Source: Rhodovastum atsumiense
GTDB lineage: Bacteria; Pseudomonadota; Alphaproteobacteria; Acetobacterales; Acetobacteraceae
Assembly (NCBI GenBank): GCA_026225115.1
Contig: JAMFSE010000104.1
Span: forward strand, 1 to 58,767
Direction of reading: 5' to 3'
Length of the DNA stretch: 58,767 nucleotides
Shown: positions 28,829 through 32,472 of the stretch, one piece after another
Numbering within the stretch: position 1 is the first letter of the stretch
Layout: each line of letters starts with the position of its first letter
Position numbers and translations under genes: made by a program
The notes under the pieces: model-generated
Database searches by the model: none
Told to the model about the DNA's origin: nothing
Seen by the model: the letters and a program-made list of their open reading frames with translations, nothing else

Positions 28829-30151
28829 CTAACCCCACAGCCGCTCAATCTCTTCCAAACTGCGCCCCTTGGTTTCCGGCACCAGCCGCCACGCAAACAC
28901 CAGCGCCGCCACGCTCAATATTGCATAGCCTAGAAAAACCCCGCTCCGACCCAGCACATTCACCAAATCCAGAAACGTCAGCGCCACGACCAGGTTCGCC
29001 CCCCAATTGGCAATCGTCGCCTGCGACATTCCGCGGCCGCGCACCGCCAGCGGAAATATCTCCGAAATCAGCAGCCAGAACACCGGCCCCAGCCCGATCG
29101 CAAAGCAGCCCACATAGGCCGCCAGCCCGGCCGCGGTCACCCAACCCAGCATCGCGCCATGGCCAAGCGCAAAACCCCCAGCCAGCACGCACAGGCTGAC
29201 CGTCATGCCGCCCAGCCCGGCCAGCAGCAGCACCCGCCGCCCAACCCGGTCCACCAGCCAGATCGCCACCCCCGTCATCGCCACATTCACCACCCCGATC
29301 CCGGCCGTCGCCAGAATCGCGGCCGAGGCCGAGGACAGGCCGGAGGCCTGAAAAATCTGCGGTGCGAAATAAATCACGGTATTGATACCGGTCACCTGCT
29401 GAAACACCGCCAGCCCAACGCCCACGATCAACGGCAGCCGCGCCGTGGCGTGACCAAGCTTGTTTTCCGGCCGGGCCTTTGCCTCAGCCTGCAAATCCGC
29501 CCGCAGCGCCGCAAGCTCCGGCGCAATCTCGTGCGGCCCCCTGCCCAATCTATGCAACGCGGCCTCGGCGGCCGCAGTTCGGCCGTGCCCTGCAAGCCAG
29601 CGCGGGGTTTCCGGCAGCAGCAGCATCCCGAGCCCGAGGATCACCCCCGGCACCGCCCCCAGCCCCAGCATCCACCGCCAGGCGCCGGATGCGGCCAATA
29701 CGTAACCCACGAGATAGGAGACCAGAATGCCGAGCGTCAGCGCCAGCTGGTTGAACGACACCAACGCCCCACGCTGGCGCGCCGGCGCAATTTCCGCCAG
29801 GTACAGCGGCGTCAGCATCGACGCGCCGCCGATGCCTACCCCCACCAGCAACCGCCCCGCAAGCAGCATCGGCAGGTTCACGGCAAAAGCCGAAACCAGC
29901 GCGCCCGCCACAAATATCGCCGCCGTCACCAACAGGATCGGCCGCCGCCCAAACCGGTCCGCCAGCACCCCGGCCACCGAAGCACCCAAAGTCGCACCCG
30001 CCAGCGCAATACTGGTCACCACCCCCTGCATCAGCGCCGAGAGATGAAACGCCACCCGCAGAAACAGCAGCGCCCCGGAAATGACACCGGTATCGTAGCC
30101 AAACAACAAGCCGCCGAGGGCTGCCGTCGCGGCGATCATGCCGAGCATCAT
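28829..30151 (-). CDS. MFS sugar porter (sugar:proton symporter)
   Basis: 440 aa with 12 predicted membrane helices. Sugar-porter signatures: GYDTGVISGALLFL (residues 18-31), DRFGRRP, GVGIGGASMLTPLYLAEIAP, LLPETPRWLAGHGR, FQQVTGINTVIYFAP, and the C-terminal VPETKGRSLEEIE. It imports a hexose or pentose with protons. It begins 26 bp after the stop of the channel-fusion gene upstream, with an AGGAAC site, so the two are probably one transcript. Confidence 0.92.
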   Translation of the reverse strand: MMLGMIAATAALGGLLFGYDTGVISGALLFLRVAFHLSALMQGVVTSIALAGATLGASVAGVLADRFGRRPILLVTAAIFVAGALVSAFAVNLPMLLAGRLLVGVGIGGASMLTPLYLAEIAPARQRGALVSFNQLALTLGILVSYLVGYVLAASGAWRWMLGLGAVPGVILGLGMLLLPETPRWLAGHGRTAAAEAALHRLGRGPHEIAPELAALRADLQAEAKARPENKLGHATARLPLIVGVGLAVFQQVTGINTVIYFAPQIFQASGLSSASAAILATAGIGVVNVAMTGVAIWLVDRVGRRVLLLAGLGGMTVSLCVLAGGFALGHGAMLGWVTAAGLAAYVGCFAIGLGPVFWLLISEIFPLAVRGRGMSQATIANWGANLVVALTFLDLVNVLGRSGVFLGYAILSVAALVFAWRLVPETKGRSLEEIERLWG

Positions 30152-30177: not shown

Positions 30178-32472
30178 CTACCAGTTCTGCGACCCATACA
30201 CGGCAACACCGGTAGCCACGACAATAAACGCAAACATCACGCGGGAGGCAATTTCGGTCCGCACCGCCGCCTTGCCATCGCCCGCGGAACGGTACCGCTC
30301 CGCAACGAGCACGGAAACGATACACAGCAGGCTGAGTGCGAAATAAACGTAGAAAATATCATCAATCACCATCGAGTACCCGACCGCGCCCAGCTGCGTA
30401 TTCAGCGACGTCTGCAATACAACGCCGGACAGCGCGCCGGTGACAGCGACAGTCACTTTTTCCTTCACCAGCAGCGGCGCGAAATAAAGCGAGGAGAACA
30501 TGATCAGCGTTATCAGCGCCAGCGGTAGCAGCGATTTCGACAGCGCCGTGAACATTCTACGTTCCACATCCACGCTGAGCGCGAAGCCCGAAAGCTCACG
30601 CTGCCGCTCCTGCCCCACCAGCACCGGATCGCCCAGCGCTGATAACGTCACGAGATTACTTCTAACCTCCTGAACCGATCGCGGATTCCATTGGGTGAGA
30701 TCGCGGAACGCATCGGGTGCTGCCTCCAGCACGAATTTCGAAGGCGGCGGCGCAAACGCCGCTTTCGGTTCCGCCGCCTCGGCATCGCCCGCGTTCTCCG
30801 TTGGCGGCGCCGCCATGCCAGAAATTTCAGGAAAGGATTGCCGGTCCAGCACATATACAATGCGGCTGGAATCCGCGGTTGCGTTGAACAGCCGGATGAT
30901 CAGCCGCTGCCGGTCGAACGGGTAGCGATGCAGGTCAAAATCATTCTTGAAACTGCCCCGCACATGCCAGAGTTTGTAGACCGAACCATCCGCCAGGCTG
31001 CGCGCCGCCACCGGCGCCCCCGGATTGAACGTCCCGCTCACCAGATCGGGAAAACTGATCTGCGACGGGTCCTGGCCTCCGATATTCTGCGCCGGCGCAT
31101 AGCGCAGCCAGAGATAAAAATCCGCGGTGAAACTGTTCGCCGCAATATCCAGCCGCTGCACCTCGTTCAGATACATGCCGGCGTAAACCACCTGCTGAAT
31201 CCGCGCATAGCCATGGCCGACATGCCGCAGTTCGCCGGATTTGATTTGGGCGGCGTCCGGCTGTGCCACCGGCACCAGCTGCAACGGCGCCGATACGAAA
31301 AGCCCGCCCTGAAAGCTGCCGATCCGCAAAGGTTGCTCCCGGCCACGGCCGGTCGTGAACCATATGGGCGCGGCCACACCCGGATACGCATTGTCAGCGC
31401 TGTTCAGCGTCGCGAGATATGCCAGCGCCGCCTGCCGGCGCAGGGCGATCGGCGCGTTGGAACCGGAGCGCGCCGCATCGCGCACCGCGGCGATGGCGAG
31501 CATGGTCGCATCATAGCTTTGCATGGCGGCCCAGGCCGGCGCGTGACCGAACCGCGCGTGAAAGCGCTGCGCAAAAGCCAGCGTCGCTGCATCCGCGCTG
31601 TCAAATATCATCGGCGCCGCGGCGTACAGATTGTTCGTGAAAAATCCGGGGTCGGCCTGCTCCTCCTCGGTGCTGGCGAACAGTTTCGCAAAATTATCAT
31701 CGGCGATGGTATTGCTGCTGAGAATCGGGCCCATGAACCCGCCGCGCCGCAGCGCCTCGATAACCGTCACCGCCTCGCCAGGCTGCATTCCCAGCACAAT
31801 GGCCGGATAGCATGCACTGGCGGCGGCGATCTGCATTGCCGAAGCGACCGCGCCGTCGCGTCCGGCATCGTCGACAAAAGGGTAGGAATTCACGGCAATA
31901 TGCAGGCGCCCTGCGGCCTTGGCGAAGCCGCCGTCGATCGGCTGGCCATGCGCGTCATTCTGGTACAGCACCGCGGCGCATTGCCCGTGCAGCACATAGG
32001 CCAGGTAATTGCCAAGGGCGATACCCATCGCGCTGGCGTTGAAAATCGCCTGATAGGTGGTCCCGGCCAAGGGGACCGCATCGCCGGTCGCGGTGGGGTC
32101 AATCGCCGCCAGCCCGGCTTTGGCAAAAACCGGCCCCGTGGCCATGGCCGCCACCGTAATAATCGGCCCCACCTCGGCCACCGCGCCGGACGCCGCAATC
32201 TCCTTTGCCACGGCGATGGCATGCGCGGGCGAGCTTTTATCATCCGTCACCGAAATCTGCACCGGCACTTCGCCCGCATCCCGGTTCGCCTCCGCCACCG
32301 CCAGCCGGGCCCCTTCTACCGACGGCAGCCCGTTGAATGCGCCAGCCCCCGTCAGCGACATTTCAAGCGCGATGGTCTGGGTAACGGGTTGCGCCAGCGC
32401 CGCGCCGGCGCCCCCCAGGGCGGATAGTAAAGCCAGGCTAAGGGCCCGAACGAAACTGGAAACTGTTCGCAT
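30178..32472 (-). CDS. Fusion of a type-1 periplasmic binding protein with a pentameric ligand-gated ion channel
   Basis: 764 aa from ATG 32472, whose signal peptide ends AGAALA at residue 27; a longer frame upstream is unlikely. Residues about 30-390 resemble the Leu/Ile/Val-type binding proteins (IALEMSLTGAGAFNG, EVGPIITVAAMATGP, ILSSNTIADDNF). Residues about 410-640 resemble a Cys-loop-receptor-type extracellular domain: YAGMYLNEVQRLD and the Pro-loop HRYPFDRQRL near 514, with an Ala/Pro-rich insert near 560-580. Four membrane helices follow: M1 (SLLPLALITLIMF, about 647-667), M2 (VTVAVTGALSGVVLQTSLN), M3 (DDIFYVYFALSLLCIVSVLV) and M4 at the C-terminus. KEKVT just before M2 has a Glu compatible with cation selectivity. 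It heads an apparent operon with the sugar porter. The ligand is unknown. Confidence 0.88.
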   Translation of the reverse strand: MRTVSSFVRALSLALLSALGGAGAALAQPVTQTIALEMSLTGAGAFNGLPSVEGARLAVAEANRDAGEVPVQISVTDDKSSPAHAIAVAKEIAASGAVAEVGPIITVAAMATGPVFAKAGLAAIDPTATGDAVPLAGTTYQAIFNASAMGIALGNYLAYVLHGQCAAVLYQNDAHGQPIDGGFAKAAGRLHIAVNSYPFVDDAGRDGAVASAMQIAAASACYPAIVLGMQPGEAVTVIEALRRGGFMGPILSSNTIADDNFAKLFASTEEEQADPGFFTNNLYAAAPMIFDSADAATLAFAQRFHARFGHAPAWAAMQSYDATMLAIAAVRDAARSGSNAPIALRRQAALAYLATLNSADNAYPGVAAPIWFTTGRGREQPLRIGSFQGGLFVSAPLQLVPVAQPDAAQIKSGELRHVGHGYARIQQVVYAGMYLNEVQRLDIAANSFTADFYLWLRYAPAQNIGGQDPSQISFPDLVSGTFNPGAPVAARSLADGSVYKLWHVRGSFKNDFDLHRYPFDRQRLIIRLFNATADSSRIVYVLDRQSFPEISGMAAPPTENAGDAEAAEPKAAFAPPPSKFVLEAAPDAFRDLTQWNPRSVQEVRSNLVTLSALGDPVLVGQERQRELSGFALSVDVERRMFTALSKSLLPLALITLIMFSSLYFAPLLVKEKVTVAVTGALSGVVLQTSLNTQLGAVGYSMVIDDIFYVYFALSLLCIVSVLVAERYRSAGDGKAAVRTEIASRVMFAFIVVATGVAVYGSQNW

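Follow-up and report, generated by a model that had tools for sequence, protein, structure and literature searches.

The window, i.e. the whole 58,767-nucleotide stretch of Rhodovastum atsumiense DNA analysed here, carries on its minus strand a single gene in which a type-1 periplasmic binding protein (PBP-I) is fused to a pentameric ligand-gated ion channel (pLGIC) (Table 1). Open-frame reading placed the ATG at 32472 and the TAG at 30180-30178, with 764 codons and no internal stop, and the limits given in a preliminary description of this DNA (30178-32472, one polypeptide) were exact. That description named no strand. Two full-length homologues (P0002 and P0003) are 44% and 47% identical to the window protein. 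The same description had listed a signal peptide and four C-terminal membrane helices, and both could be retraced: the former ends, by eye, in ALAQP (residues 25-29), and the four helices were predicted from a low-confidence model.

Immediately downstream lies a gene for a sugar-porter MFS transporter, which is a possible operon partner of the channel gene. No match to it was found in the other eight PBP-pLGIC regions, some of which are short (L067 stops just past the channel gene, and L101 begins near it). The MFS gene and an SDR neighbour had best matches of only 59% and 44% identity in the 37 other genomes of the genus. Promoter and terminator scans gave nothing better than shuffles. In two other regions (L003 and L066) the PBP-pLGIC gene has an EF-G-like gene as its divergent neighbour, which is not so in the window.

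Table 1. Channel gene, its parts and the downstream transporter gene (positions in the window; residues of the encoded protein).
Feature	Positions	Strand	Basis
Whole gene, PBP-I / Pro-loop ligand-gated channel fusion, 764 aa	30178..32472	-	Open frame, full-length homologues
Signal peptide, residues 1-27 (ALA before QP)	32392..32472	-	Sequence; putative cleavage site, by eye
Periplasmic binding domain, residues 32-385	31318..32379	-	Pfam PF13458, profile match to 4gnr
PBP-to-sandwich junction, residues 404-432, VVYAG at its end	31177..31263	-	Similar junction in MscS-pore relatives
pLGIC extracellular beta-sandwich, residues 426-639	30556..31197	-	phmmer, profile, hhalign, Foldseek
Pro-loop RYPFDRQ, residues 516-522; Cys-loop cysteines absent	30907..30927	-	Sequence
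Ala/Pro-rich stretch, residues 551-587	30712..30822	-	Alignment: ~20 residues longer than in L004 and L025
Predicted M1 helix, residues 641-661	30490..30552	-	AlphaFold2 model secondary structure, low confidence
Predicted M2 pore helix, residues 669-693	30394..30468	-	AlphaFold2 model, low confidence; alignment
Predicted M3 helix, residues 700-729	30286..30375	-	AlphaFold2 model secondary structure, low confidence
Predicted M4 helix, residues 733-763	30184..30276	-	AlphaFold2 model secondary structure, low confidence
Sugar-porter MFS transporter, 26 bases downstream of the channel gene	28829..30151	-	Pfam Sugar_tr E 1e-119, TIGR00879

Binding half and channel half

The N-terminal half had been described as a type-1 periplasmic binding protein over residues 30-390, and Pfam Peripla_BP_6 (PF13458) indeed matched residues 32-385 with E 4.7e-28 (99.3 bits against a cut-off of 31.7). 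A profile of this part matched PDB entry 4gnr (E 3.4e-23), and most of its relatives with solved structures carry names of binding proteins for Leu/Ile/Val or other amino acids. At E<=1e-5 the PDB yielded 34 matching sequences, none of which spans both halves of the window protein.

Residue conservation was counted in the window protein and six homologues (n=7). An acidic residue occupies position 233 in 6/7, with E233 aligned to a glutamate of 4gnr and 3ip5, and serine or threonine occurs at position 106 in five of the six sequences that possess the position; these are residues whose LivJ counterparts we take to hold the amino and carboxyl groups of the ligand. Conservation of the pocket is only partial: A128 is conserved but the residue that follows it varies, a commonly found tyrosine is H175 in the window protein, and one homologue (L077) has neither the S/T at 106 nor the acid at 233. 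The ligand is probably an amino acid or a close analogue.

With regard to the channel half, it is homologous to pLGICs, as several searches agree. NCBIfam LGIC_1 matched with E 2.6e-9 (36.9 bits, far under the curated cut-off of 500), and phmmer against the PDB returned an ELIC-GLIC chimera (4yeu, E 1.1e-6) and chains of GLIC (2.3e-5 and weaker). A three-sequence profile reached a GLIC-GLRA1 chimera (4x5t, E 1.4e-9), and hhalign aligned the sandwich and membrane part to six plain bacterial pLGICs with a probability of 99.6 (E 1.8e-23). Foldseek, run with an AlphaFold2 model of the channel half, had GLIC 6zgk as its top match (E 2.5e-10, with TM of only 0.48/0.54 and rmsd 9.2). This model and another one, built from three-sequence alignments, are of low confidence (mean pLDDT 57.9 and 47.8), so their details were left unused. 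The preliminary description had expected Pfam to recognise residues 410-764 as Neur_chan_LBD and Neur_chan_memb. That part did not stand, with no match to either model at E<=1 in the window protein and weak Neur_chan_memb matches in two homologues (E 0.21 and 0.035), whereas pLGIC homology was upheld by the searches above, as was the Cys-loop-type beta-sandwich with its YPFD motif (residues 517-520).

The features found are a sandwich of GLIC/ELIC type, the proline and aspartate of the Pro-loop, a basic residue before M1 and four predicted helices; beta-sandwich, Pro-loop and four helices are thus held in common with GLIC and ELIC. Cysteines occur only at 165, 221 and 717, and the disulphide pair of animal Cys-loop receptors is absent. 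Specifically, W455, P518, D520 and the pre-M1 arginine R638 are invariant (7/7). In M2, with prime numbers taken from an alignment to plain pLGICs (duplicates L005, L024 and L058 excluded), the window protein has E671 at -1', K672 at 0', T674 at 2', T678 at 6', L681 at 9' and V685 at 13'. T at 6', L at 9' and V at 13' are conserved in 7/7 and T at 2' in 6/7. Glutamate at -1' stands next to K or R in five of the seven, with S and A in the other two. Since glutamate followed by R/K ahead of M2 is given as a cation-channel motif in passages of Tasneem et al. (PMC549065), the pore is probably cation-selective; with the -1' glutamate replaced in two of the seven, selectivity may therefore vary inside the group.

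A likeness to ionotropic glutamate receptors had also been suggested. It holds for the layout, a PBP-I fold N-terminal to a channel in both, but not for the channel: Pfam gave neither a glutamate-receptor channel nor a PBP-II domain at E<=1 in the window protein, and membership of that receptor family was ruled out. The channel of ionotropic glutamate receptors consists of a split PBP-II domain and an inverted potassium-channel pore.

Distribution and published counterparts

The same domain order was found in six close homologues from other genomes (L003, 44%; L004, 47%, which is one gene with L005; L025; L075; L076; L077), and the fusion is thus conserved in relatives. Because such homologues occur in other genomes, the fusion is real, and an assembly error or frameshift joining two genes was ruled out. 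Of these, L075 is interrupted by one in-frame stop in the PBP part (same gene at L099 7051-9339). More distant PBP-pLGIC proteins were obtained from the phylum outside the class (L056 and L059-L065; only the end of the PBP of L065 lies within the open piece).

The gene is rare. In the class, the channel profile matched 11 of 385 sampled genomes, namely two with PBP-pLGIC (the window's own and G368), one with PBP-MscS and eight with plain or incomplete pLGICs. At the level of the order, 11 of 395 genomes matched, comprising five with PBP-pLGIC (own, G057, G1015, G1083 and G1113), two with PBP-MscS and four with plain channels. Within the genus, 37 further genomes, several of which are incomplete, gave no full-length match; the matches there were PBPs alone. 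A viral origin was rejected after a scan of viral contigs, in which 97 stretches fitted a pattern and none was confirmed as a relative.

The window protein is a member of an already-published PBP-I/channel architecture. Passages of Tasneem et al. 2005 (PMC549065) describe channels of this kind with a fused PBP-I in Magnetospirillum magnetotacticum and Bradyrhizobium japonicum, both alphaproteobacteria like the host of the window, and predict that they are chemoreceptors. By that description, their order of signal peptide, PBP-I, beta-sandwich and four helices is the one seen here. An excerpt of a 2022 review (PMC9221113) likewise notes, for many of the N-terminal domains on prokaryotic pLGICs, a resemblance to periplasmic binding proteins, and the survey mention given in the preliminary description is thus in print. 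In the text of Jaiteh et al. 2016 (PMC4795631) drawn on here, terminal domains were left out and such associations were known at genome level only. The corresponding text of a 2025 paper (PMC12664993) reports that little is known on N-terminal domains and that DeCLIC is the sole pLGIC with a partly characterised one. DeCLIC, which was a Foldseek match of our full model, resembles the window protein in having an extra periplasmic domain before the pLGIC core, but that domain is built of two jelly-roll lobes according to part of a further paper (PMC9897478), whereas ours is a PBP. The preliminary description knew of no functional study, and we found none in the open-access literature. Nor did that literature yield, for any PBP-type pLGIC, a structure, a recorded current or a ligand established by measurement, an absence that carries little weight. 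The PBP-channel architecture is therefore not new, having been published in 2005, and the stronger novelty is its sibling with an MscS pore.

Relatives with an MscS-type pore

After its own group, the next matches to the full protein were two proteins (L006 and L007) with a PBP, a sandwich-like middle part and an MscS end (Pfam MS_channel_2nd, E 2.3e-10 and 2.3e-18). A third PBP-sandwich-MscS protein (L028) additionally has the start of a cyclic-nucleotide-binding domain. When the middle part of the three was used as the query, 41 of 398 sampled genomes of the phylum matched, a few families being dominant, and the window's own protein was recovered with E 6.7e-14. Thirty loci were taken from this search: 18 PBP-sandwich-MscS proteins, nine PBP-pLGICs (one being the window), two incomplete ones and one with MscS only. 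With the three above and two more from the order (L081 and L082), PBP-sandwich-MscS proteins totalled 23 (L006, L007, L028, L036-L046, L049-L055, L081 and L082), some of them cut by contig ends.

The middle domains of 21 MscS forms were compared with pLGIC sandwiches using hhalign (duplicate loci L005, L024 and L058 excluded from the sandwich sets). Against eight plain pLGIC sandwiches the probability was 98.2 (E 4.5e-14), and the best of 20 column-shuffled controls reached 1.3 (E 0.039); column shuffles are a mild control, and the borders of the MscS-form domains were set with an HMM containing pLGICs. Against the PBP-pLGIC sandwiches the values were 99.8 and 1.1e-27, and against six full plain pLGICs 96.6 and 5.8e-10. 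A first comparison, with three MscS forms and borders set by eye, gave 95.6 and 1.2e-8. The link of the MscS-form sandwich to pLGICs is distant and confined to the profile-profile level, because the 21-sequence profile, when searched directly against the PDB, had no match at E<=1.

Compared with the window protein, these proteins thus have a related PBP, a homologous sandwich and a similar junction motif, but an MscS pore replaces the Cys-loop-type one and the aspartate of the Pro-loop is absent (kept, by eye, in 0/21 aligned MscS forms). The junction motif, VVYTG-like and situated where the PBP ends and the sandwich starts, is common to both pore types, with L006 deviating. A further difference is that the MscS forms often adjoin type I secretion genes. 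Among ten MscS-type regions, picked from the 23 proteins before their context was known, seven carry all three genes, for ABC exporter, HlyD adaptor and TolC-like protein, next to the MscS-form gene (L068, L069, L070, L102, L105, L107 and L108). Of the remaining three, L106 has HlyD and a TolC-like protein, L104 a weak ABC match near the contig end, and L103 none of these. In L070 and L102 the HlyD protein scored above the cut-off of NCBIfam type_I_hlyD; under the cut-off, the best model was type_I_sec_LssB for the ABC protein and type_I_sec_TolC for the TolC-like protein. No ABC exporter, HlyD or TolC-like gene was found in the nine PBP-pLGIC regions, of which L067 ends just past the gene and some others are short. 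The open-access literature held no report of a PBP-sandwich-MscS protein or of its tie to type I secretion, which is only a weak absence. Two PBP-sandwich-MscS genes stand in L106, and its genome (G575) gave eight matches in the phylum search; the family can therefore expand.

In an unrooted tree of the PBP part, a branch (99/97) separates eight stand-alone PBPs from the two fused types, which are interleaved. Six PBP-pLGIC rows from outside the class adjoin the stand-alone PBPs (98/94). The eight stand-alone PBPs are a small set, collected for their similarity to the window protein and kept by length and score filters. L042 and L065 were omitted (PBP <200 aa), and L075-L077, L081 and L082 are absent from this tree and from a PBP-plus-sandwich tree, which additionally omits the incomplete L047 and L048. 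Only with a root among the stand-alone PBPs would the tree favour one origin for the fusion. Although the PBP tree interleaves the two types, a single MscS clade was not rejected in the PBP-plus-sandwich tree (AU p 0.457), and we therefore claim only at least one change of pore.

We claim from these comparisons that the two pore types share a PBP-sandwich cassette. The occurrence of the same pair, with a similar junction, on an MscS pore makes PBP and sandwich look like a single unit and suggests one gating cassette. We lean slightly towards a broader reading, in which PBP-I and sandwich would form a portable ligand-sensing cassette placed on unrelated Cys-loop-type and MscS-type pores, the MscS form possibly being ligand-gated and controlling or supporting secretion. 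If this reading is true, movement of the sandwich would open five-fold pores and, if the other pore is MscS-like in this respect, seven-fold ones. The MscS relatives offer a natural experiment, with a related sensor and sandwich on another pore, for separating the roles of sandwich and pore in gating.

Proposed gating and alternatives

We consider it reasonably probable that the window gene encodes a PBP-I-gated, homopentameric Pro-loop channel in the inner membrane that opens once an amino-acid-like ligand has closed the PBP. The domains, the single gene, the conserved fusion and the homology of the channel half to pLGICs were established computationally; we infer the pentamer, the kind of ligand, which way the coupling runs, the selectivity and the location. 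The periplasmic LivJ-type domain would bind a small solute, probably an amino acid or close analogue, in its cleft. The short conserved junction (...VVYAG) would transmit closure of the PBP to the beta-sandwich, and the Pro-loop and pre-M1 arginine would relay it to M2. The probably cation-selective pore would then open, with its gate near L681 (9'), so that a nutrient or signal level would be turned into a membrane current. A PBP-type pLGIC is a good test case for such gating, because binding assays on the isolated domain give ligands to try on the channel.

The most serious alternative, which we regard as rather unlikely, is that the PBP is a modulator or assembly domain, comparable to the amino-terminal domain of glutamate receptors or the N-terminal domain of DeCLIC, and that the agonist (protons, amines or loss of calcium) acts at the sandwich. 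Plain pLGICs without a PBP are present in the same class and order, and GLIC and ELIC function without a PBP and have no N-terminal sensor domain. The only partial conservation of the PBP pocket would also be consistent with modulation. For DeCLIC, parts of two papers report that calcium binds both periplasmic domains and that the N-terminal domain affects gating kinetics (PMC9897478, PMC12664993); the latter text has it that gating speed appears to be altered and that no agonist binding was shown. On the other hand, PBP and sandwich travel together onto the MscS pore, where the Pro-loop aspartate is absent. This fits a signal supplied by the PBP and is not decisive.

Gating by PBP closure also differs from an improbable scheme in which the PBP captures or concentrates the ligand and passes it to the channel's own site, the resulting current steering motility. 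Passages of Tasneem et al. 2005 (PMC549065) propose both the hand-over and a role in motility. With 12 MCP-domain matches and one flagellin match in its genome, the host is probably motile and chemotactic, which would be compatible with a motility role of the channel. However, 0/12 of the MCP matches are on the window's contig, and the hand-over step requires a second binding site.

Finally, a degenerate or non-conducting receptor is very improbable: its patchy spread, with the genus result given above, and the stop in the PBP part of L075 would agree with decay, but the 764-codon frame of the window gene is intact, and conservation extends over its pore, Pro-loop and pre-M1 positions.
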